Part shown: in pieces, positions 530 to 10,795 of the stretch
Position numbering within the stretch: the stretch's first letter is position 1
Layout: each line of letters begins with the position of its first letter
Source: Chloroflexota bacterium
GTDB lineage: Bacteria > Chloroflexota > Dehalococcoidia > SAR202 > UBA11138
DNA: 10,795 nt
Assembly (NCBI GenBank): GCA_022566975.1
Contig: JADFHV010000042.1
Coordinates: forward strand, 1 to 10,795
Direction: 5' to 3'
Position numbers and translations under genes: made by a program
The notes under the pieces: generated by a model
Seen by the model: only the letters and a program-made list of their open reading frames with translations
Database searches by the model: none
Told to the model about the DNA's origin: nothing

Positions 530-2206
530 TCAATAGCTCCGGGCCTCAGGCTGCCATTGGGTGATGACGACCGGCAGGTGCTCGACCTCGGGGCCCTCGG
601 CGCCGCGTTTGACCATGACGTGCTTCAGCCAGTTCTCGTCGTCACGATCGGGCATGTCTGTCCTGGTGTGCGCTCCTCTGCTCTCTTTTCGCTCCAGAGC
701 GCTCAGGGCAATGGTCTCGGCACAGTCCAGCATGAACCCCAGCTCAAGTGTGAACAGCAGATTGGTGTTGAAAATCTTACCCTTGTCCGCGACGGAGACG
801 TGGCTGTAGCGCTCCCTGAGTGACCGTATCCCGTTCAGCGCGGTCTCCATGCCGGCCTGGTCTCTGAACACGGCGAGGTGTTCGTTCATGGTCTGGCCCA
901 GTTCCAGCCTGAGCCTCCCGAACATGTGGCCGTTGGCGTCGTTGCCGAGGAGTCCCTGTATGAACCGGCGGTCGCCGTCTGCCGCACTGTCCCTGATCTC
1001 TTTGTGGGTGGTGCCCTTGACCTGCTCGGAGGCGTGCTCGCCCGAACGGCGTCCGAAGACCAGGGTGTCCAGCAGAGAGTTGGCGCCGAGCCGATTGCCG
1101 CCGTGTACACTGACGCACGCGACCTCTCCCGCGGCGTAGAGGCCGGGCAGGGGAGTCTTACCGTTCACGTCGGTCTTGATGCCGCCCATCTGGTAGTGCA
1201 TTCCCGGCTGGATGGGTATGGGCTCCTGTGAGATGTCCACGTCGGCGAAGTCCCTGGCAATCTCCAGTATCTGGGTCAGCCGCTCCTGTATCACCTTCTC
1301 GCCCAGGTGACGGCAGTCCAGCAGGACACAGCCGTCAACGGCTCGGCCCTCGTTTATCTCTGTCTGCTCGGCCCTGGAGACGACGTCCCTCGACGCCAAC
1401 TCCATCATATTGGGGGCGTACCGCTCCATGAACCGCTCGCCGTCCGAGTTAAGCAGGTAGGCGCCCTCTCCCCGTGCCCCTTCGGTAATAAGCACCCCGC
1501 TCCCCTTTAGAGTGGTGGGGTGGTATTGGACCATCTCCATGTCCATTAACGGCGCGCCGGCGCGATAGCCCAGGGCCATGCCGTCGCCGGTGCAGATGAG
1601 AGCGTTGGTGCTGGGCTCGAACACCCTGCCGAGTCCACCCGCCGCCATTATCACTGCCTTGGCGCGGACCACGTGGATGTCGCCGCTCCTGATCTCCATC
1701 ATGACGGCGCCGCTGCATTCGCCGTCTTCGACGATGAGCGATAGCACGAACCACTCTTCGTAGACCCTTACGCCCGCCTTCAGGATCTGCTCGTAGAGGA
1801 CGTGTAGAAGCGCCTGGCCCGTGAAGTCTGCGACGAAGAAGGTCCGTGCCTGACGCTGGCCACCGAAGGCTCGCGTCCCAAGCCGGCCCTCGTCGTCCCT
1901 GCTGAAGATCACGCCCATGTGCTCGGCCGCTAACACCTCGTCACCGGCCTCGCGGCACATGATCTCGATGGCGTCCTGGTCGCCCAGGAAGTCGCTGCCC
2001 TTGATGGTGTCGTAGGCGTGGTCCCTCCAGTCGTCGCCGCGGTCCGTCAGGGCGGCGTTGATCCCGCCCTGGGCGGCGTTGGAGTGGCTTCGGACGGGGT
2101 GGACCTTGGTGACCACGGCTACATCCGCCCCGTTGGTCAGGGCGGCAAGGGCTGCCCTCATGCCCGCGAGGCCCGCGCCTATTATCAGCACGTCGTGATC
2201 AAGCAT
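530..2206 (-). CDS. sdhA: Succinate dehydrogenase/fumarate reductase flavoprotein subunit
   Basis: Catalytic FAD subunit interconverting succinate and fumarate in the TCA cycle/respiratory chain. It has 558 residues, slightly shorter than E. coli SdhA (588). Seen in order: N-terminal dinucleotide-binding motif IIGAGLAGMRAAL (8-20); RSHSNAAQGG (39-48), whose His41 corresponds to the covalent FAD attachment site; HPTTLKGSG (228-236) and LITEGARGEG (238-247) in the dicarboxylate site; ASRDVVSRA (270-278), with Arg272 at the position of the catalytic arginine; MHYQMGGI (335-342); and the C-terminal FAD segment GLYAAGE plus HGGNRLGANSLLD (367-379). DDENWLKH near the end is typical of the family. 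All key residues are present, so it should be active. Start is ATG at 2206; no strong Shine-Dalgarno is seen. sdhB follows on the same strand. No membrane-anchor subunit gene lies upstream, where the Pel operon ends. SdhA versus FrdA naming is uncertain; the family is not. Confidence 0.97.
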   Translation of the reverse strand: MLDHDVLIIGAGLAGMRAALAALTNGADVAVVTKVHPVRSHSNAAQGGINAALTDRGDDWRDHAYDTIKGSDFLGDQDAIEIMCREAGDEVLAAEHMGVIFSRDDEGRLGTRAFGGQRQARTFFVADFTGQALLHVLYEQILKAGVRVYEEWFVLSLIVEDGECSGAVMMEIRSGDIHVVRAKAVIMAAGGLGRVFEPSTNALICTGDGMALGYRAGAPLMDMEMVQYHPTTLKGSGVLITEGARGEGAYLLNSDGERFMERYAPNMMELASRDVVSRAEQTEINEGRAVDGCVLLDCRHLGEKVIQERLTQILEIARDFADVDISQEPIPIQPGMHYQMGGIKTDVNGKTPLPGLYAAGEVACVSVHGGNRLGANSLLDTLVFGRRSGEHASEQVKGTTHKEIRDSAADGDRRFIQGLLGNDANGHMFGRLRLELGQTMNEHLAVFRDQAGMETALNGIRSLRERYSHVSVADKGKIFNTNLLFTLELGFMLDCAETIALSALERKESRGAHTRTDMPDRDDENWLKHVMVKRGAEGPEVEHLPVVITQWQPEARSY

Positions 2207-2400: not shown

Positions 2401-2787
2401 TCAGCTACGCCTGTCGGCCAACTCCCGGACTGCCGCGTGGGCCTCGGAGGCCGTGTCGTAGAGGTCCATGACAAGGTCCATATGAGTCACCTCCAAGACG
2501 CGCCTCGGCAGCTCGGTGAATCCAGCAAACGCCACAACTACCCCCGCTTCGCGCGCTTCGCGCTGCAGTCCGATGATGGCGCCGAGCCCGGAGCTGTCCA
2601 TGAAGCTCATGCCGCCGACGTCGACGACCACTCCGGAAATGTCCCTGGAGAGGGCCTCACGTTGCTTCTCGACGAACTCGCTTTGGGTCAGCAGGGTGAG
2701 CTCGCCCTCCAGCCGGATGACCAGCACCGTATCCTCGACGTCTAACTCGACGGTCAGTTCCCCTCCCATGGGCCTTTGGAACGCCAA
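2401..2787 (-). CDS. STAS-domain anti-sigma factor antagonist (RsbV/SpoIIAA-like), partner of PelG kinase domain
   Basis: Small cytoplasmic STAS protein (128 residues). Proteins of this family bind an RsbW-type kinase when dephosphorylated and release it when phosphorylated on a conserved serine. The motif FMDSSGLGAIIG (62-73) is intact; Ser65 corresponds to the phosphorylated Ser58 of B. subtilis SpoIIAA. The C-terminal RVLEVTHMDLVMDLYDT (96-112) is also typical. Start choice: TTG at 2787 abuts the pelG TGA (2788-2790) directly, with GAGGAG 6 bases upstream inside the end of pelG. An alternative ATG at 2769 would have only AAAGG three bases away. It is the last gene of the operon, and its obvious partner is the HATPase domain at the C-terminus of PelG, encoded immediately before it. 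No PP2C-type phosphatase, needed to reset such a switch, is visible in the window. Confidence 0.92.
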   Translation of the reverse strand: MAFQRPMGGELTVELDVEDTVLVIRLEGELTLLTQSEFVEKQREALSRDISGVVVDVGGMSFMDSSGLGAIIGLQREAREAGVVVAFAGFTELPRRVLEVTHMDLVMDLYDTASEAHAAVRELADRRS

Positions 2788-4728
2788 TCAGGACTCCTCT
2801 TCCGTTAGTGTATCGAACTTGGTCAGGACCACCCGGCTAACATTACCCACGCCCTCGAACGACACGTCGTCCATCAGCGAATCGACCAGGAACAGGCCGT
2901 ACCCGCCTCCCGCCAACGCCTCCGGTGCCGGTGGCCTGATCTCCCCCGGCTGGAAGGGAGGAGCCTCGTCGACGATGGCGACGCGTATCACAACACCCCG
3001 CTTCGTAAGCTCGAACTGGAACTCGCCGATGGCCCGCGCGCGGTACTCGTGCTCTATCCTGTTGGTGCACACCTCGGTCACCGCCAGAGCGAGGTCGGCC
3101 CCCGCCTCACGGGAGACCTCCCACTCGCCCAGCACGGTCCTCAGCCACTCCCGGACCTTGGGGAGTTCCTCCAGAGTCGTGGGAGCGGTCAACATCGCCT
3201 CCCTGGCCTCGCCCTCAGGGAGGGGCTGGGGCATCGTGACCTTCGCCTCTGTAGGCTGCGGCATCGCCGCACGCGGGGTCGATTTCTGCGGCTCTTCCTT
3301 CTCGGGCGCAGGATCCTGGGCCATGGGAATCGGCGGGGCGAATGCCGCGCGTTCTGGCGCGGTGATGGGCTGACGTGCGAAGGTGAGGTACTCGAGGTTG
3401 CTGAACCGGTTCGCCAGCGCCAATATGGCCAGAGCGGTTGCCACCGCCTCGGCCGCCAGGAAGCCAAAGCCGTACCACTGGAACCCCATGTGTATGGTCC
3501 ATGCGGTGCCGACGACGTTGATGGCCACGAAGACCGCCAGCACTATCACCGGGCTGCTCCGCATGTTGAAGTAGAGCAGCATCAGGATGGTAATGGAGAG
3601 GAACACGTGGAGGCCGACGCTGATGATGCCCAGCCTCAAGGAGAAGAGGTAAGCCTCGGGAAGCCCCAGGACGTCCAGTGCCGCGGGCGCAAACACCAGG
3701 CCGAGGGCCACGATAACCGTCTGGAGCCTGAGCAGGCTCAGGTAGCTTCCCACCAGCGCCTTGCCCATCTCCCGTTTCTCGTCCATCAGTTCTCGTCGCG
3801 TCGCCTTGTTGTTGAGCTTGCGGTAGAAGTCCCGGTAGTGGATGTAGAACCGGGTCTCGACCTGTATGAGGAACAGGGCCATTGCCGGCATCGCGGTCAG
3901 GAACGCCAGGAACGTCGCGGTGTCATAGAGGGGGTGCACGTGTATCAGGCCAACCACCTGCAGCCCATCGCCGGTGAACCACAGCATGATGTTATCGATC
4001 CAGACCCCGATGTTGTATAGGAGGCCAATAGCGACCAGGGAGGGAAATTTCAGGACGTACCGGTAGAACCCGAAGTTGACCGTCGTCGGCAGGCCGAACT
4101 CCTCGATCACCCGAAGCCACAGCAGCACAAAGGTCAGACTCTGCCCCAGCGCGAAGCCGGCTACCGCGCCCAGGGGTCCCCACAGGCTGCCGAAGACGTA
4201 GTTGGCTCCGAAGCTGAGGGCATAGCCGAGTGCGAAGGACCAGACGATTGGGCCGTAGCTCTTAGCGGCGCTCAGGAATATCATTGTGAGCCAGATCCCG
4301 CTGACCGCTACGTATATGGTGCCCACAGTCAGAGCGTAGGCGACGCCGACACCCGAGAGCATGAACACGGCCGACAGCGAGGCCATCTGGATGGGGAGCA
4401 CGGCGACCAGCAGACCCAGCAGCATCGGCGTGACCCGCCTGAGCCCGTCGGAGTAGAGCAGGTCAGCGACCATGCGGGTTGCCGGCATCATCACCAGTCC
4501 GGTCATGATGAGTGAGAAGGCGAAGCTGTAGCTGACGGCCGAGAAGAATAGGTTGCGCTCTTCGGCCGGCAGGAACCCCGATGAGACGACGCCCAGCAGC
4601 GCCATGGTAAAGACCGCTATGAACCACGGCCCCGATGAGATCACGGCCGCCGCCAGGTAGCCCTTGAAGACGGAGCTATACGTCTCCTCGGCCACCACTC
4701 TCCTGAGGACGAATCCTATGCCGGCCAT
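2788..4728 (-). CDS. pelG: PelG-like polysaccharide membrane protein fused to an RsbW-type HATPase domain
   Basis: PelG is the Wzx/MATE-like inner-membrane component of the Pel synthase-transport complex, working with PelD, PelE and PelF. This protein has 646 residues, against about 456 in Pseudomonas. Residues 1-453 form the PelG domain: it begins MAGIGFVLRR, has SSGPWF (31-36), many hydrophobic segments, and ends LEYLTFARQP, as PelG proteins do. Residues 454-512 are a Pro/Glu/Ala-rich linker. Residues 513-646 are a GHKL/HATPase domain of the RsbW/SpoIIAB kind: N-box TEVCTNRIEHEY (551-562, Glu552 and Asn556), G1 box VDEAPPF (586-592, Asp587 kept, usual Gly replaced by Ala589), and G2 box GGGYGLFLVDSLMDDV (607-622). 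The start is ATG 4728, chosen by family match, 19 bases after the pelF stop; the frame stays open upstream to 4992 but that part lies over pelF. The kinase fusion is unlike any standard PelG and points to phospho-regulation. Confidence 0.93.
   Translation of the reverse strand: MAGIGFVLRRVVAEETYSSVFKGYLAAAVISSGPWFIAVFTMALLGVVSSGFLPAEERNLFFSAVSYSFAFSLIMTGLVMMPATRMVADLLYSDGLRRVTPMLLGLLVAVLPIQMASLSAVFMLSGVGVAYALTVGTIYVAVSGIWLTMIFLSAAKSYGPIVWSFALGYALSFGANYVFGSLWGPLGAVAGFALGQSLTFVLLWLRVIEEFGLPTTVNFGFYRYVLKFPSLVAIGLLYNIGVWIDNIMLWFTGDGLQVVGLIHVHPLYDTATFLAFLTAMPAMALFLIQVETRFYIHYRDFYRKLNNKATRRELMDEKREMGKALVGSYLSLLRLQTVIVALGLVFAPAALDVLGLPEAYLFSLRLGIISVGLHVFLSITILMLLYFNMRSSPVIVLAVFVAINVVGTAWTIHMGFQWYGFGFLAAEAVATALAILALANRFSNLEYLTFARQPITAPERAAFAPPIPMAQDPAPEKEEPQKSTPRAAMPQPTEAKVTMPQPLPEGEAREAMLTAPTTLEELPKVREWLRTVLGEWEVSREAGADLALAVTEVCTNRIEHEYRARAIGEFQFELTKRGVVIRVAIVDEAPPFQPGEIRPPAPEALAGGGYGLFLVDSLMDDVSFEGVGNVSRVVLTKFDTLTEEES
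2794..2799 (-). promoter_or_regulatory. Ribosome binding site for the STAS gene
   Basis: GAGGAG on the minus strand, 6 bases before the TTG start at 2787 and inside the last codons of pelG. It decides the TTG start and suggests translational coupling to pelG. Confidence 0.7.
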
Positions 4729-4747: not shown

Positions 4748-6289
4748 TCAGTCCTGCTCCTCGGTCGCACCGACGGGCTCGCGCCCGAGCGCTCCCATCT
4801 CTCTGTAGAGCCGATCGTACTGATAATGGACGGTCTCCAGACGGTAGAACCGCTCGACTCTTGCGATTCCCGACCTTCCCATCGCTGTACCGAGGGCGGA
4901 GTCCTGGGCCAGCCGGACCAGCGACTTGCCGGTGATCTCCGGGCTGGCGACCGGTGTGATAATGCCACTGGGTCCCAGCGCCTGATCGGCACCGGTCCGG
5001 CCCAGCAGCATCTCCTTGCAGGCCCCCACGTCCGTCGCGACCACCGGGATACCGGCGCAGCTTGCCTCCAGTATCACCAGGGGAACCGCCTCGCTTGCAG
5101 AGGTGAGTACCAGCACGTCCATCTGCGGGTAGTAGTCAAGGACGTTGGCCTTGCCGGTGAACTCGACCACGTCTGCTCGGCCGAGGTTTGCGGAGAGCTG
5201 AAGGCACTCGTCGTAGTAGTCGCGGTCTTCGTCGTAGGGGCCCACGATGATGCAGCGCATCTCGGGCACCTCTTCGTGACAGACCTTTATCCCCCTCAAG
5301 AGGGTCTTGACGTCCTTGATGGGGACCACCCGGCCTACGAAACCAACGGTGAACGGCGACCCGTCGGACCGGACTTCGTCCCTGCGGGCCGAGGAGAAGC
5401 GCTCGATGTCGATACCGTTGGGGATCACTCGCATGCGCTCGGGATCGGCGCCGTCATGCCTCTGATACGGTTGGTTGACGCCGGTGATGGTGATCACCGC
5501 GTCGGCCCGGCTGTAGGTCGCGTTGCTAAAGTACCGGAACATGTCGATCCACCACTGCTTGAAGAAGCTCTTGGTGCGGCTTACCTGGAGAGCGTCGTGG
5601 TCTGCAGCATAGATCCAGGTGGCCTGAGCGATCTCGAGCTCCCGTTCGTGGGTGTAGATGCCATGCTCGGTGACGAGCATGGAGCTGCCCGTCCGCTCCT
5701 TCGCCAGGGCGGCCATGAACCCTCCGTAGCCGGTCGAGATGGTGTGGTAGACCCTTGCGGGAGGCGGCTCGGCGAAGAGGACCCTGAAAATCGGCAGGTG
5801 CGTAAAGACGAAAGTCCAGTAGTAGTCGATGAACGATGAGTCGGAGCCGTACTGGTCGTAAAGGTCGAGCAGTAGCCGCCACGACCGCCTGGAGCGGATC
5901 AACCGATCGATCGACGGTCCGTCGCGAGCGTCTGGACTGAGCGCTGCTGCGAGAGTGGCGAACGTATCGCTCGTCCGCTCGTGCTTCAGGTCCCGGTGGA
6001 GCTCGTCTATCATCTCGGCCAAGCCGGCCTTTAGGGACTTGCCCCGGCCTCCCATGTCCAGAGCGCCCGCGCCCTGGTCGAGGATATAGAACTCGTCGAG
6101 TCCGACCACGTTGGGTGGGAGCTCATACTGCATCTCCGCGCGGGACTCCCTGTCGGCGCCAACGAACATCAGCGTGAAGGTGATGTCGGGCAGACCCTGG
6201 ATCAGCGAGTGGACCCACGAGGAGACGCCGCCCGAGACGTAGGGGTAGGTGCCCTCCAGGATCATGCAGACGTCGGCGGTGTCTTTCAC
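4748..6289 (-). CDS. pelF: Pel polysaccharide glycosyltransferase PelF (GT4)
   Basis: Cytosolic retaining glycosyltransferase that polymerises the Pel backbone from a UDP-amino-sugar and works with PelD/E/G at the membrane. It has 513 residues, close to Pseudomonas PelF (about 507). The N-terminal signature EGTYPYVSGGVSSWVHSL (12-29) is diagnostic of PelF. Also seen: LVTEHGIYTHERELEI (205-220), RVIPNGID (287-294), GFVGRVVPIKD (316-326) opening the nucleotide-binding half, and the GT4 EX7E motif in SEAVPLVILEAS with Glu400 and Glu408. Start: GTG at 6289 forms a GTGA overlap with the pelE stop and has GGAGA 7 bases upstream; a longer frame from TTG 6310 adds only seven residues and has poorer support. 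No truncation or missing catalytic residue is seen. Confidence 0.95.
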   Translation of the reverse strand: MKDTADVCMILEGTYPYVSGGVSSWVHSLIQGLPDITFTLMFVGADRESRAEMQYELPPNVVGLDEFYILDQGAGALDMGGRGKSLKAGLAEMIDELHRDLKHERTSDTFATLAAALSPDARDGPSIDRLIRSRRSWRLLLDLYDQYGSDSSFIDYYWTFVFTHLPIFRVLFAEPPPARVYHTISTGYGGFMAALAKERTGSSMLVTEHGIYTHERELEIAQATWIYAADHDALQVSRTKSFFKQWWIDMFRYFSNATYSRADAVITITGVNQPYQRHDGADPERMRVIPNGIDIERFSSARRDEVRSDGSPFTVGFVGRVVPIKDVKTLLRGIKVCHEEVPEMRCIIVGPYDEDRDYYDECLQLSANLGRADVVEFTGKANVLDYYPQMDVLVLTSASEAVPLVILEASCAGIPVVATDVGACKEMLLGRTGADQALGPSGIITPVASPEITGKSLVRLAQDSALGTAMGRSGIARVERFYRLETVHYQYDRLYREMGALGREPVGATEEQD

Positions 6290-7368
6290 TTGCCGATCTC
6301 CGCCCACCAACGCATGAGCGCTCCCTCCGTCGGGTCATCGATGGTCAGGTCCGCGGCGTCTGTGGCTCGCGCATGAAGTTGATCGTAGCGGCCTAGTGAG
6401 AAGAGGGCCTCCATGCTCAGGAGAGCGGCCTCGCTGGCGCCAACAGACGCGGCGGTCGGCGGGTCCAGAGCGGCAAGGGCCTCCCTGTACTCCCTGGCGG
6501 CGATGTGGCAGCGGGCACGCTGCAGGACCGTGATGCGCTCAGGGTCCAGACTTTCGGTGCGCTCGAACTCGGCGGCGCCCAGGCGGGCGTAGTGCGCCGC
6601 GGTGGTCTCATCAAGCAGGCCGGACACGGCGTAGTCCAGGTAGAGCTGTGCGAGAAGGCCGGCAGCCTCCGCGGACGACGGCTCCTCCTCCGCCCCACGC
6701 TGGGCGTTCGCGATAGCCTCCCCTATTTGTCCCTCGAGTTTCGATAGGCCGACCGATGCCTGGAACCTAACGTCGGCCTCCGGCGCGGTAAGCAGTCTCC
6801 TCAGGACCGGCACCATGTGCGTTCCCTGCAACCGGCTCATGATGTCGATGGCCGATGCCTTCAGCTCCAGGTCGTCTGCGTGGAGGATGTCCACCAGCGG
6901 CTGGACCTCCATCGCAGTGGCCAGAAGCCGGGGCGCAGGAATCCTGCCGGCCATAGGGCCTGCCAGCGTACCACTCCCCTCGGCGTCATCGGCCGCCGGG
7001 TTTGTGACCCATGGGTTCGGTTCGTGGAAGGCATACCAGAGAACGATCGCCGCGGCCAGGACGGCCCCGGCCGGGGGTACCGAGAGCAGTAGGATGGTCG
7101 CTATCCCCACCCCCCACACCATGCCACCGGGTTGCCACGCCCGCCACAGAATTGCCCAGACGGTCACTGCGGCCGCCACGTGGATGGCGATTCCCGCCGC
7201 CGGGCTCTCGAGAGGGCTCGTCCCGGGCCAAAACAGGTATGCTGCCCCCCCGTCTACCAGGAGTCCGAGCGTGGCCGCCAGGATCGACCCATACCGGCGC
7301 CGTCCCGTGATGGCGCGTGCAGCGTCCGGCCTGCCACGCCTCCTCGCTTGTCCGCTACTCTGCGCCAA
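6286..7368 (-). CDS. pelE: PelE-like membrane protein with HEAT/TPR-type helical repeats
   Basis: Likely the PelE scaffold of the Pel synthase complex, which in Pseudomonas anchors to the membrane and associates with PelD. It has 360 residues (Pseudomonas PelE is about 330). A basic N-terminus (QARRRGRPDAARAITGRRR) precedes hydrophobic segments at about 27-46, 57-75 and 83-112. The soluble part has a HEAT-like pair at about 153-215, including LVDILHADDLELKASAIDIM, then TPR-like helices at about 231-345. Assignment rests on this architecture plus its place between pelD and pelF; sequence identity to known PelE is not obvious by eye. It starts at TTG 7368 with GGAGA 6 bases upstream and overlaps the end of pelD by 14 bases; no in-frame ATG exists until about residue 83, which would lose the first two membrane segments. 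Confidence 0.72.
   Translation of the reverse strand: MAQSSGQARRRGRPDAARAITGRRRYGSILAATLGLLVDGGAAYLFWPGTSPLESPAAGIAIHVAAAVTVWAILWRAWQPGGMVWGVGIATILLLSVPPAGAVLAAAIVLWYAFHEPNPWVTNPAADDAEGSGTLAGPMAGRIPAPRLLATAMEVQPLVDILHADDLELKASAIDIMSRLQGTHMVPVLRRLLTAPEADVRFQASVGLSKLEGQIGEAIANAQRGAEEEPSSAEAAGLLAQLYLDYAVSGLLDETTAAHYARLGAAEFERTESLDPERITVLQRARCHIAAREYREALAALDPPTAASVGASEAALLSMEALFSLGRYDQLHARATDAADLTIDDPTEGALMRWWAEIGK
6297..6301 (-). promoter_or_regulatory. Ribosome binding site for pelF
   Basis: GGAGA on the minus strand, 7 bases upstream of the GTG at 6289 and inside the end of pelE. It favours the GTG start over the upstream TTG at 6310. Confidence 0.65.
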
Positions 7369-8740
7369 TCAGATTCTCCGGCGACTGGGCCCCGTCACTG
7401 AGCTCGGATACACGATAGGTTAGTCTGAGGGGTTCATCGTCCACGTAGGGCTTGAACCCGAAGGCCTCGATCTCGCGCGACAGGCCATCGATCACCTCAT
7501 CCGCATCGTTAAGGTGGCGGTGAGGGAAGATGATCACGAAAGACGCGCCGTCGGCGTGCCGTCCGAGCAGGTCGGTGGGGCCAAGATTGTGCCGAAACAC
7601 ATCTCCCAGGACGGCCAGGACGTTGGGCATCATGTCGGCGGAGACGTCGTCGTGGCGCGCCACTTCCAGGACCGCGACGGAGAGAGGGAAGCCGAAGGTC
7701 TTGGCCCGCTCTACCTCCTCTCGTAGGCGCTTGAGTGTATAGGTGCTCCCAAATGCTCCCGTAAGCTCGTCTTCGATGTTCCGATCTCGCGTCTCCTGGT
7801 AACGCCTCGAAGCCTGGAGCGATTGAGAGGTCCATCGCGCTATGGTGGCCGCTGTAGTAACGGAGGTGGGCGTGAACTGGAAAAAGCCGATCTTTTCCAC
7901 AAGGATGAACCCCACTACCTCCTCCCGCGGACCTGTCAGGGGAGCCGCTATGGCCAGAGGGGCATTCGAGAGCTGGTCCGGGGCGGTGTTGAGGACTACG
8001 TCACGCAGTGAGACCGTCTTGGTCTGTCCGAGGCACTCTCGCAGGACCGCAGAAGAGGTCAGCCAATCGGTGGTAGCTGCGGAGCCGGCGTCCGGGGGAT
8101 AGACCGCCGCCACCTCCAGGGTACCGGAGTCGTAGAAGCAGACCGACACCAGCGTGGCCTCCAGGAACTTGCCGGTTACCTCCGCGGCGATCCCTGGAAT
8201 CTCCCCCTCCTCGAGGGTCTCCAGTCGCCGTGCCACATCGTAGAGGTTGGTGAAGGTGAAGGTCTCTCCCAGCATTCTCCTGTGCAGGAGCGCCCTCGCC
8301 TCCTCGCTCTGAGTGAACTGGGTGGCCAGGTCCTCTACCGCGGTTTCGAGAGAGCGGTTGCGCTCTCTCAGGGTCTGGACTCGCGTCTCGAGCCGCTGTC
8401 TCACCTCTCCTATGAATACCGCACCGGCGGCCATGAGGACCGGGGTGGTGGGGTCGAAGTCGAACGAGCTGTCGGTGACCTGAAACAAGAGATGAATCCC
8501 GAAGGACATCAGCCCGCTGAACACTGCCGGACCAAGCCCGTACATTATTGGAATGAACACCGTTACGACCCAGAAGGGGTGCGGCCTCGTCTCCAGGAAC
8601 CCCCACTGGTCCCTGAACCAGAGAAGGTTGATCAGGACTATGACACCCAGAGCCCCGAGGGTCTCCAGGTAGGGCGACCAGGCGCCGAGCTTCAGACGCC
8701 CGATGGCACTGGGACTCCCGGTGCGTCTCCCGTTCTCCAT
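7355..8740 (-). CDS. pelD: PelD-like membrane regulator: TM + coiled coil + GAF + degenerate GGDEF
   Basis: PelD is the inner-membrane regulatory subunit of the Pel synthase; in Pseudomonas it binds c-di-GMP through an RxxD site in an inactive GGDEF domain. This protein has 461 residues (about 455 in Pseudomonas) and the same layout: hydrophobic N-terminus (about 27-111, roughly four segments), a charged coiled coil (about 114-157), a GAF domain (about 160-315), and a GGDEF-fold domain (about 323-461, opening with DELTGAFGSTYTLKRL). The GGDEF signature is replaced by ADGAS (396-400), so no cyclase activity is expected. The RxxD position reads GPTD (387-390): the Asp is kept, the Arg is Gly. 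Arg422 lies 32 residues after that Asp, the same spacing as R402 from D370 in Pseudomonas PelD. Start: ATG 8740 gives a TGATG overlap with the preceding gene; a GTG one codon upstream (8743) is equally possible. Confidence 0.87.
   Translation of the reverse strand: MENGRRTGSPSAIGRLKLGAWSPYLETLGALGVIVLINLLWFRDQWGFLETRPHPFWVVTVFIPIMYGLGPAVFSGLMSFGIHLLFQVTDSSFDFDPTTPVLMAAGAVFIGEVRQRLETRVQTLRERNRSLETAVEDLATQFTQSEEARALLHRRMLGETFTFTNLYDVARRLETLEEGEIPGIAAEVTGKFLEATLVSVCFYDSGTLEVAAVYPPDAGSAATTDWLTSSAVLRECLGQTKTVSLRDVVLNTAPDQLSNAPLAIAAPLTGPREEVVGFILVEKIGFFQFTPTSVTTAATIARWTSQSLQASRRYQETRDRNIEDELTGAFGSTYTLKRLREEVERAKTFGFPLSVAVLEVARHDDVSADMMPNVLAVLGDVFRHNLGPTDLLGRHADGASFVIIFPHRHLNDADEVIDGLSREIEAFGFKPYVDDEPLRLTYRVSELSDGAQSPENLIGAE
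7375..7379 (-). promoter_or_regulatory. Ribosome binding site for pelE
   Basis: GGAGA on the minus strand, 6 bases before the TTG start at 7368, inside the last codons of pelD. It supports the TTG start. Confidence 0.6.
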
Positions 8741-9573
8741 CACCCACCCGTGCTGGAAAGACGTCGGACTTCGTTCAACGCCTTTTCACGCTCGCCAAGC
8801 TGCTCCGTGAAGAGGTAAAGGTCCGCGAGCTCGGACCACGCCACGAGACTATCGGGGTCCAGATCGAGGGCCCGCTCGAACACATCGATGGCCGCGAAGT
8901 CGTCACCGGTCCAGGTAATGACCTTCCCGAGGCGCAGGTGCGCCTCCAACGCATTCGGGTGAAGGCGGACGGCGTCCCGGAGTATGACAATGGCGTCGTC
9001 TATCTTTTGGGTCCAGCTCAGGACGTCTCCCGCCCGGACCATTAGCTGAAGGTCCGTGGGGTCTATAGCCAGCATCTCGAGGTATACGTCGATCGCCTCA
9101 TCGGTCCGCTGCTGCCAGATCAGGTACTCGCCCAGCCACTCCCTGACCTCCACGTCTTTGGGGTCCAGGGCCCTGATCCGCATGCGATAACCGGCGGTCC
9201 GGTGTGGCTCTAGCTGCCAGTCGGCCAGCGTTGCCGCCCTTCTCAGCGCGTCGACGTCGTCGGGCACGATGGCCAGGTACCTGTCCAGGACCTCCTGGGC
9301 TTCTCCCTGTCTACCGGCGAAGACGTGTGTCTCAGCCAGGGGGAGTAAGAGCTCCGGCCTGTCCGGGTGTGCCTCGATGTCTCGAACACGGTACACGACC
9401 GCCTTGTGCGTCAGGAGGCTACTCTCGAGAGCCTCGGCTGCTCGTCGGTCCGAGGGTATGAGCAGCCATCCGAGGGCGAGCGCTAGTCCGGTTACCAGCA
9501 CCGCTATTGGGACGGGCCAGTAAGCGCCGACTACGCGTTGGACGGCGGGTGCCTCCCGGCTATCGCTGGTCAA
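8740..9573 (-). CDS. Membrane-anchored TPR protein in the pelB position
   Basis: 277 residues: one hydrophobic segment at about 20-40 (PVPIAVLVTGLALALGWLLI), then consecutive TPR-like units over about 73-272, with recurring features such as LAIVPDDVDALRRAA, LAIDPTDLQLMVRAGD, VRLHPNALEAHLRLGK and LDLDPDSLVAWSELADLY. In Pseudomonas, PelB has an N-terminal membrane segment, a periplasmic TPR region that binds PelA, and a C-terminal outer-membrane barrel (about 1190 residues in total). This protein matches only the first two parts and sits between pelA and pelD as pelB does, so it may be a reduced PelB-like scaffold that recruits the deacetylase PelA. TPR similarity alone is weak proof of orthology. 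Start TTG 9573 has AGAGG 5 bases upstream and overlaps the pelA end by 14 bases. No barrel region or PelC-like lipoprotein gene follows. Confidence 0.8.
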   Translation of the reverse strand: MTSDSREAPAVQRVVGAYWPVPIAVLVTGLALALGWLLIPSDRRAAEALESSLLTHKAVVYRVRDIEAHPDRPELLLPLAETHVFAGRQGEAQEVLDRYLAIVPDDVDALRRAATLADWQLEPHRTAGYRMRIRALDPKDVEVREWLGEYLIWQQRTDEAIDVYLEMLAIDPTDLQLMVRAGDVLSWTQKIDDAIVILRDAVRLHPNALEAHLRLGKVITWTGDDFAAIDVFERALDLDPDSLVAWSELADLYLFTEQLGEREKALNEVRRLSSTGG

Positions 9574-10795
9574 TGTGGCCTCTGACCTCTACGGTGTCGG
9601 AGCCTCGGGGCAGCCGTACGCTGGCCTTGCCGTCGGCGTCGGCGGTCACGCTGGTGGATGCCCCTGAGATCGTGAATGTCAACCCGGTGCCGGGTGTCAG
9701 CCCGGCGAAGCGAAAGACCGTGTCCAGCCGGGCGTCGACCGAGAACACGTCGGCGTCTCCGACTACTGTCCGTTGGTCGACGAGGCAACCGCAGTACTCC
9801 AGGTGGGGAGACTGAGACTCCGAGTCCGCCAGGTGGACGGTGGCCTCGCCGCCCGCGCCGAGGAATACATACAGCGAGCCGTTGATCCGTCTGTGTCCGA
9901 CTACGTTGGTCGATTCGACAATGTCCACCGTGGCATCGGTATCGTCGAACCGCACTGTACGCATGTCACCGTAGTCCGAGATACGCCATACGTCTTGTTT
10001 AAGGGGGTGGATCGCGGTGGCAAGCCAGCCCTGGACCATCCGCACGTAGTCGCTGGCCCAGACGCTGGTTATCTCCTGGGTCCCTATCCAGTCGAAGACC
10101 TGGTGAAGGGCGGAGAGCGACGCGTCCTTGCTCCCGCTGTAGAAGTGGTAGTACACGTCGATTGGCGTCAGGCGCCGGGGGCTCTCGGTACGCTTGAAGG
10201 TCTGGATCACGTTCTTGAAGCCCTCGAACGGGCCAGTCCAGAGACCCGTATAGTTGTGATCGTTGGGGTTGGTCGCGTAGTACTGGACCTGGCCGTCGAC
10301 CTGCGCTACCAGTGGCACCAACCATGACGACGAGTCGAACTCCGAGTCGAACCTGCCCAGACCTCCGTTCATGTTGACCACACCCGCCTCCCCCGTGGCC
10401 TGGAGCGCCCTGGGATCGGGATTGGCTTGACCGGACCAGAGGAACACCTTGACCGACTTCCCCGGAGGCGCCAGCCGCTGGTTTATGAACTCCACAGACT
10501 GGCGGACCTCCCTGTCCACCAGTAGCTCCCTGTTGGGGTAGCCTGGGAAGGTCTCCGCGGCGAAGTTTTTATCCGCGTTCAGCGAGCCACGCCAGTCGAA
10601 AGGGTGGGCCCATGAGTGGCTGGCGAGCTCGACGTTGTCCAGGGAGAAGAGCTCCCGGGCCACGCGCTCCATCCTGGGGCTGCCCGACTCGGACGGGTCA
10701 ATGTCGAAGACGATGATCGATGCGGTCACCAGGTAAGGATAGACCCGCAGGACATCGTCGAGTATCATTTCGGCGGCGATGGACTTGGGGTCGGA
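9560..10795 (-). CDS. pelA: PelA-like polysaccharide deacetylase, C-terminal part (cut by window edge)
   Basis: PelA de-N-acetylates (and in many species also hydrolyses) Pel in the extracytoplasmic space. The frame is open to the right edge, so the 5' part is missing; 411 residues are visible. Numbering from the first visible codon: ASHSWAHPFDW (58-68) matches the PelA deacetylase zinc-binding segment, with His60 and His64 four apart, as H600/H604 in Pseudomonas PelA (family CE18). VYYHFYSGSKDASLSALHQVFDW (split around 214-236) is another strongly PelA-like stretch. The first 20 visible residues fit the region just after the catalytic Asp motif, which would lie immediately off the window. 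The last ~130 residues are beta-rich (VRFDDTDATVDIV..., FTISGASTSVTADADGKASVRL) and resemble PelA's terminal beta-sandwich. Whether an N-terminal hydrolase domain is present cannot be seen. The downstream TPR gene starts within its last codons. Confidence 0.88.
   Translation of the reverse strand, partial: SDPKSIAAEMILDDVLRVYPYLVTASIIVFDIDPSESGSPRMERVARELFSLDNVELASHSWAHPFDWRGSLNADKNFAAETFPGYPNRELLVDREVRQSVEFINQRLAPPGKSVKVFLWSGQANPDPRALQATGEAGVVNMNGGLGRFDSEFDSSSWLVPLVAQVDGQVQYYATNPNDHNYTGLWTGPFEGFKNVIQTFKRTESPRRLTPIDVYYHFYSGSKDASLSALHQVFDWIGTQEITSVWASDYVRMVQGWLATAIHPLKQDVWRISDYGDMRTVRFDDTDATVDIVESTNVVGHRRINGSLYVFLGAGGEATVHLADSESQSPHLEYCGCLVDQRTVVGDADVFSVDARLDTVFRFAGLTPGTGLTFTISGASTSVTADADGKASVRLPRGSDTVEVRGHIDQR
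9579..9583 (-). promoter_or_regulatory. Ribosome binding site for the TPR gene
   Basis: AGAGG on the minus strand, 5 bases before the TTG start at 9573 and inside the end of pelA. It supports the TTG start, though moderately. Confidence 0.45.

Follow-up and report, generated by a model that had tools for sequence, protein, structure and literature searches.

The window analysed here, the whole 10,795-nucleotide stretch of contig JADFHV010000042.1 (Chloroflexota bacterium, assembly GCA_022566975.1), carries on its minus strand a tight operon encoding, in this order, part of PelA, a TPR protein, PelD, PelE, PelF, PelG and a STAS protein, in which neighbouring frames abut or overlap with the exception of a 19-base gap between pelF and pelG. 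We focus on the last two genes, in which the PelG exporter is prolonged by a C-terminal HATPase domain of the RsbW/SpoIIAB type and followed by a STAS protein of the RsbV/SpoIIAA type. The features concerned are listed below (pLDDT, predicted local distance difference test).

2788..4728, minus strand: PelG-HATPase fusion, 646 aa (PF16933 and PF13581)
3364..4728, minus strand: PelG exporter part, residues 1-455, MOP-type membrane bundle (PF16933)
3193..3363, minus strand: Pro/Ala/Glu-rich linker of 57 residues (456-512), with indels and low identity between fusions and low pLDDT
2788..3192, minus strand: RsbW/SpoIIAB-type HATPase_c_2 domain, residues 513-646 plus stop codon (PF13581; RsbW 6M36)
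3043..3075, minus strand: N box, residues 552-562 (E552, N556, H560), aligned with RsbW 6M36 and invariant in the three fusions described below
2953..2970, minus strand: G1 box, residues 587-592, DEAPPF, with Ala replacing the first Gly
2887..2910, minus strand: G2 box, residues 607-614, GGGYGLFL, aligned with GGLGLYL of RsbW 6M36
2794..2800, minus strand: Shine-Dalgarno-like AGAGGAG of the STAS gene, six bases before its TTG, within the 3' end of pelG
2401..2787, minus strand: STAS protein (RsbV/SpoIIAA-type), 128 aa from TTG (PF01740)
2593..2595, minus strand: codon of S65, predicted phospho-acceptor in DSSGLG (first Ser of D64-S65-S66-G67, TTG numbering)

The exporter part is full-length, PF16933 matching residues 1-450 at 408.9 bits (cut-off 29) over profile positions 1-452 of 452. 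A preliminary description, made from the sequence alone, had proposed that this PelG bears an extra RsbW/SpoIIAB-type HATPase module and abuts an RsbV/SpoIIAA-type gene with an intact DSSGLG motif, and profile searches confirmed both. PF13581 covers residues 516-633 at 84.4 bits (cut-off 27.4; profile positions 2-125 of 127), and among solved structures the extra domain comes closest by sequence to the serine kinase RsbW of Bacillus subtilis (6M36; 37 bits, E 3.2e-8), its only structure match at E <= 0.1; the closest named models are the anti-sigma RsbA family and RsbW. The STAS protein matches PF01740 at 62.1 bits and lies above the cut-off of the anti-anti-sigma superfamily TIGR00377 (60.9 bits vs 53.45), short of the SpoIIAA equivalog TIGR02886 (57 of 114.75 bits), and the profile of its group matches TM1442 (1SBO) and SpoIIAA (1TH8) as nearest solved relatives. 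Its frame begins at the base right after the pelG TGA, with TTG as putative start codon; an alternative start, ATG at 2769, would give 122 aa and fits a 122-aa database entry, P0122, assigned to the window itself, while six STAS homologues are 128 aa long.

The fusion is not confined to the window. When 5.77 billion proteins were searched by words and scoring derived from PelG residues 505-646, three of 1610 candidates reached E <= 1e-3, all three of them PelG joined to an HATPase: the window's own protein and two relatives with the same fusion, P0002 (on a contig of 1,940,241 bases) and P0003 (194,594 bases), respectively 83 and 82% identical to it. Identity between the three fusions reaches 84-90% in the core and 76-79% in the HATPase domain vs 47-52%, with indels, in the linker, so that the HATPase looks constrained while its tether varies. 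Nor is there any hint of a shifted frame within the window, where the GC content at third codon positions (GC3) of the PelG core, linker and HATPase part is 0.86, 0.77 and 0.82, respectively.

The STAS protein has a comparable distribution. Its search returned 12 proteins among 137 candidates, seven of which cluster closely (79-100% local identity, P0122 included) while five others stand at 33-42%, and S65 is retained in 11 of the 12 aligned sequences. Two of these homologues, P0124 and P0126, lie on contigs of 194,594 and 1,940,241 bases and, from these equal lengths, are read as sharing contigs with the fusions P0003 and P0002, the abutment itself being seen in the window. On these sequences, the PelG-HATPase architecture is real and kept together with a STAS homologue in one small clade of uncultured bacteria. 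The pairing of a kinase with its substrate, as previously put forward, thereby appears supported as an architecture, both partners being present and a close STAS homologue being assigned to both other fusion contigs; the gating of Pel export and the reporting of secretion status to a sigma factor, also suggested in that description, are hypotheses.

The claim that the module holds N, G1 and G2 boxes was borne out for the N and G2 boxes, which align with RsbW 6M36, and calls for a correction at G1, where DEAPPF keeps D587 but has Ala for Gly. This substitution (D-x-A for D-x-G) is common to all three fusions, P0002 and P0003 included, with E552, N556, D587 and the G2 glycines retained throughout. 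We compared it with 34 other HATPase rows from loci of twelve genomes, three of these rows duplicating a domain present in two loci: D-x-G occurs in 32 of them, N-x-G in one and D-x-A in one (L050). With one such case in 34, the G1 Ala is uncommon, yet not unique.

Beyond this clade, a profile built from the three fusions scored 7996 candidates, 303 of them at E <= 1e-10, and PF13581 was found in 3 of the 120 listed, by a profile that favours fusions because the HATPase is part of it. The closest non-fusion relatives among the matches listed (P0004-P0006; 60-62% identity, 472-493 aa) have no HATPase and stop shortly after a shared PIT-x-x-ER tail; as these nearest relatives are without it, the domain was probably gained near this clade, or else lost elsewhere. 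Distant fusions that have no words in common with these sequences would escape detection. Genomes were also sampled from three phyla, leaving out that of the window: 297 genomes from the phylum of G002, 52 from that of G009 and 398 from that of G003, in which 3, 10 and 32 PelG places, respectively, passed the cut-off. Open frames of 452-567 aa at 42 of these 45 places leave no room for an extra domain, and the three longer ones (885, 1043 and 1142 aa) extend solely upstream of PelG.

Among 44 PelG loci on genome contigs, PelG ends 456-479 residues after the start of the match in 38 and is cut off by the contig end in two, and the remaining four (L024, L029, L033 and L034, from Nitrospirae) carry a different extension. 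Here, PelG and PelA share one open frame of 1187-1193 aa, in which PelG is followed by a hydrophobic stretch and a PelA-like part scoring 208-238 bits to the window PelA, an arrangement that fits the modelled PelG-PelA contact in Bacillus cereus (PMC13254593). Tails of another kind occur in P0043 (Planctomycetota), P0054, P0055 and P0067: 215-446 residues long and rich in TxT[DE], they hold 7, 2, 4 and 11 copies of this motif vs shuffled means of 1.09, 0.08, 0.71 and 0.91, with zero copies in three shorter-tailed PelGs (P0064, P0068 and P0087). Such repeats may be phospho-Thr docking sites, as part of another tail-based regulation of PelG.

HATPase or STAS genes were also sought near other pel loci: none was detected in 45 loci (the 44 above plus L045, which repeats part of the genome of L024) by phmmer at E 1e-3 with the window domains, an insensitive test. 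At greater distance, four genes stand in a row at 14985-18656 of L080 (genome G352), 11-15 kb from pelG on the same contig: an HATPase_c_2 gene and, with a 4-base overlap, a STAS gene, followed by genes for a glycosyltransferase and a SpoIIE phosphatase. In G004, an HATPase_c_2 domain (48.8 bits) is encoded within a 436-aa frame on contig 209 (6737-7180; L069), at a distance of about 10 kb from a pelG gene (17263-18612), one of two in this genome. A scan of viral_contigs with two peptide patterns revealed no relative, and tblastn with PelG, as well as with the dehydrogenase protein in plasmids, yielded no match that reached 60% identity.

In an AlphaFold model of all 646 residues, the exporter is well resolved, with block pLDDT of 81-98 after the first 50 residues (62-81), and residues 478-505 of the linker are disordered (below 50). 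Searched with Foldseek, the full model finds MATE/MOP transporters, and also WzxE and MurJ, among the best 50 of 272 matches, with no HATPase match among these 50. The MurJ protein of Mycobacterium tuberculosis, MviN, to which we return below, is a MOP flippase. In B. cereus, PelG has been described as a 12-helix MOP protein (PMC13254593). We infer that the PelG C-terminus and the HATPase are cytoplasmic, because the helix number is even and the N-terminus is placed inside.

The remaining features of the window are given below.

9560..10795, minus strand: PelA, C-terminal part, 5' end outside the window (PelA 9CGY, 212.9 bits)
8740..9573, minus strand: TPR protein with a single N-terminal hydrophobic helix, 277 aa
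7355..8743, minus strand: PelD-like protein, GAF and degenerate GGDEF domains (PelD 4EUV/4DMZ among matches)
7571..7582, minus strand: GPTD at the position of the cyclic di-GMP (c-di-GMP) I-site RxxD of PelD, residues 388-391 (alignment with other PelDs)
6286..7368, minus strand: PelE-like membrane/repeat protein (phmmer matches across pel loci)
4748..6310, minus strand: PelF glycosyltransferase (NF038011, 488.9 bits, cut-off 100)
530..2206: succinate dehydrogenase flavoprotein-like gene, unrelated and downstream of the operon (46% identity to annotated sdhA on plasmids)

The PelD structures 4EUV and 4DMZ match the window PelD at E ~0.002 across residues 231-320, and the PelE-like protein has phmmer matches (E <= 1e-3) in 29 of the 45 pel loci, counted per locus and not per gene position. 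If the TPR protein stands in for PelB, it may do so in a host without an outer membrane. Two perfect 9-bp hairpins with similar cores (2305-2324 and 2349-2368) lie between the STAS and dehydrogenase genes, with no T-run after them as judged by eye. Rfam at gathering scores and a tRNA scan gave no match in the window, nor did PADLOC for two proteins.

PelD is where c-di-GMP acts on Pel systems regulated by this nucleotide, through an RxxD I-site: in B. cereus, Ala at either the R or the D of this motif abolishes c-di-GMP binding measurable by calorimetry (PMC7112168). The window PelD departs from this signature, with GPTD and no Arg, a feature that the preliminary description had overlooked. 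As a consequence, a partner switch may supplement or replace c-di-GMP control in this operon. Elsewhere, the PelD of Streptococcus intermedius has no GGDEF domain, and its c-di-GMP-free regulation is termed undetermined in print (PMC12345266).

Together, the fusion and the adjoining STAS gene suggest a new way to turn Pel export on and off. We propose that the PelG exporter carries its own partner-switch kinase, by which Pel export would be switched locally, and give this reading a probability of about one half. PelD, PelE, PelF and PelG form one inner-membrane complex (PMC8461298, PMC12345266), so that tethering to PelG would keep the kinase in the cytoplasm within this complex, next to PelF and PelD. 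If it behaves as RsbW does with RsbV, the HATPase domain would bind the unphosphorylated STAS protein and, with ATP, phosphorylate it at S65 and release it; docking or release of STAS would then determine how the exporter, or else PelF/PelD, is set, and a PP2C phosphatase (SpoIIE/RsbU-type) encoded elsewhere would reset STAS. Export of Pel would hence be controlled by protein phosphorylation, besides or instead of c-di-GMP on PelD. The simplest output of a domain attached to an exporter would be the exporter itself, and for B. cereus a feedback that reaches PelF by way of PelG has been put forward (PMC13254593). Kinase activity, STAS binding and the export output are all predictions drawn from sequence and analogy.

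Several observations weigh against this proposal. The HATPase domain misses the two NCBIfam RsbW equivalogs (38.7 of 145 and 34.1 of 155.05 bits) as well as the RsbA cut-off (48.6 of 210 bits), and its G1 Ala would be compatible with an active variant as with a dead domain. It is poorly resolved in the full AlphaFold model (block pLDDT 31-63), where in our reading the order of strands and helices nevertheless fits a GHKL fold. A single-chain model of HATPase and STAS (stop read as Trp; four-row alignment) reached a pLDDT of 38 and a predicted template modelling score (pTM) of 0.27, values that make it unusable and leave the interface without model support. No phosphatase was found among the 7 window proteins scanned. 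Finally, the I-site of the fusion clade was read in the window PelD alone, not on the P0002 and P0003 contigs, and comparison with 26 PelDs from other loci, 4 of them not alignable at the I-site, showed RxxD in 15 of the 22 counted; the motif is missing in 7/22, whose loci revealed no fused kinase, so that its loss is neither specific to the fusion nor rare. A stronger version, in which the whole clade has lost the PelD site and control has passed from c-di-GMP to the exporter-borne serine kinase, whose STAS substrate directly opens or shuts transport, seems doubtful to us.

The nearest named models, RsbW and the RsbA family, the nearest solved relative, RsbW again, and the membership of the STAS partner in the anti-anti-sigma superfamily would also suit a membrane-tethered anti-sigma factor, in which the PelG HATPase holds a sigma factor whenever unphosphorylated STAS is missing and thus reports the state of Pel to transcription. 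We regard this as unlikely: no sigma factor was found among the 7 window proteins scanned, and a biofilm switch with a non-sigma target exists in SiaC-SiaD (PMC7647112, PMC8457831). An equally unlikely explanation makes the HATPase a catalytically dead docking domain that anchors STAS or another regulator to PelG, in the manner of MviN/MurJ, a pseudokinase-bearing membrane protein whose phosphorylated tail recruits FhaA (PMC12599244); the G1 Ala, present in all three fusions and in 1 of the 34 other domain rows, speaks for it, while the retained E552, N556, D587 and G2 glycines, together with S65 in the STAS partner, speak against it.

Alternatively, the HATPase could belong to a general switch, the fusion merely providing membrane placement or co-expression with no effect on Pel. 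Fusions can arise when the stop codon between operon neighbours is lost, and the clade is small, with 3 of 120 listed PelG matches; yet the fusion has been retained at 82-83% identity, with a domain better conserved than its linker, and such mere cross-talk appears quite improbable. As to a frameshift or misassembly at 3190-3370 joining two genes, named in the preliminary description, it can be dismissed, since two further contigs hold the fusion in frame with linkers differing by indels, GC3 is even and we found no point in its support.

Like RsbW/RsbV and SpoIIAB/SpoIIAA, the proposed exporter-borne switch combines an HATPase_c_2 domain that has N and G2 boxes with a STAS protein bearing DSSGLG. 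Unlike them, it has its kinase at the C-terminal end of a membrane exporter and its STAS gene after that of the kinase, is not adjoined by a sigma factor gene, and scores below the equivalog cut-offs for RsbW and SpoIIAA. In Vibrio fischeri, a kinase and a STAS protein likewise control biofilm polysaccharide, SypE phosphorylating SypA at S56 (PMC8256260, PMC4517449), but SypE is also a phosphatase and, in the parts of the source available, is not described as part of an exporter, and the target of SypA is given there as not known in print (PMC8256260). The SiaA/SiaB/SiaC/SiaD system of Pseudomonas aeruginosa is another biofilm partner switch with a non-sigma target (PMC7647112, PMC8457831); its output passes through the cyclase SiaD and c-di-GMP, its acceptor is T68, and the available parts of these sources describe no fusion to an exporter. 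MviN/MurJ of M. tuberculosis is a cell-wall membrane protein in which a kinase-like domain (710-942) brings in a partner (PMC12599244), but this domain is a Ser/Thr pseudokinase rather than a GHKL kinase, and the partner an FHA protein rather than a STAS protein. Lastly, the Gram-positive pelDEADAFG operons have the core genes in common with the window, include the S. intermedius member without c-di-GMP binding, and are in some cases adjoined by CotH-like kinase genes (PMC7112168, PMC12345266); no fused HATPase or STAS gene is described for them in the parts of the sources available (PMC7112168, PMC12345266, PMC13254593).

Each half of this architecture is known, but their joining and its presumed output are not. 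In agreement with the earlier statement that no such PelG had been described, we found in the open-licence PMC literature, including the available parts of two Pel surveys, no description of a PelG with an HATPase or STAS domain, nor of a flippase together with an anti-sigma factor, an HATPase and a STAS domain. If our proposal is true, a transporter would join the known outputs of partner switches, the fusion providing a covalent link between the switch kinase and its presumed target. A fused kinase with its likely substrate encoded next to it would thereby offer a concrete, testable answer to the question of c-di-GMP-free Pel control, in one lineage outside Streptococcus.

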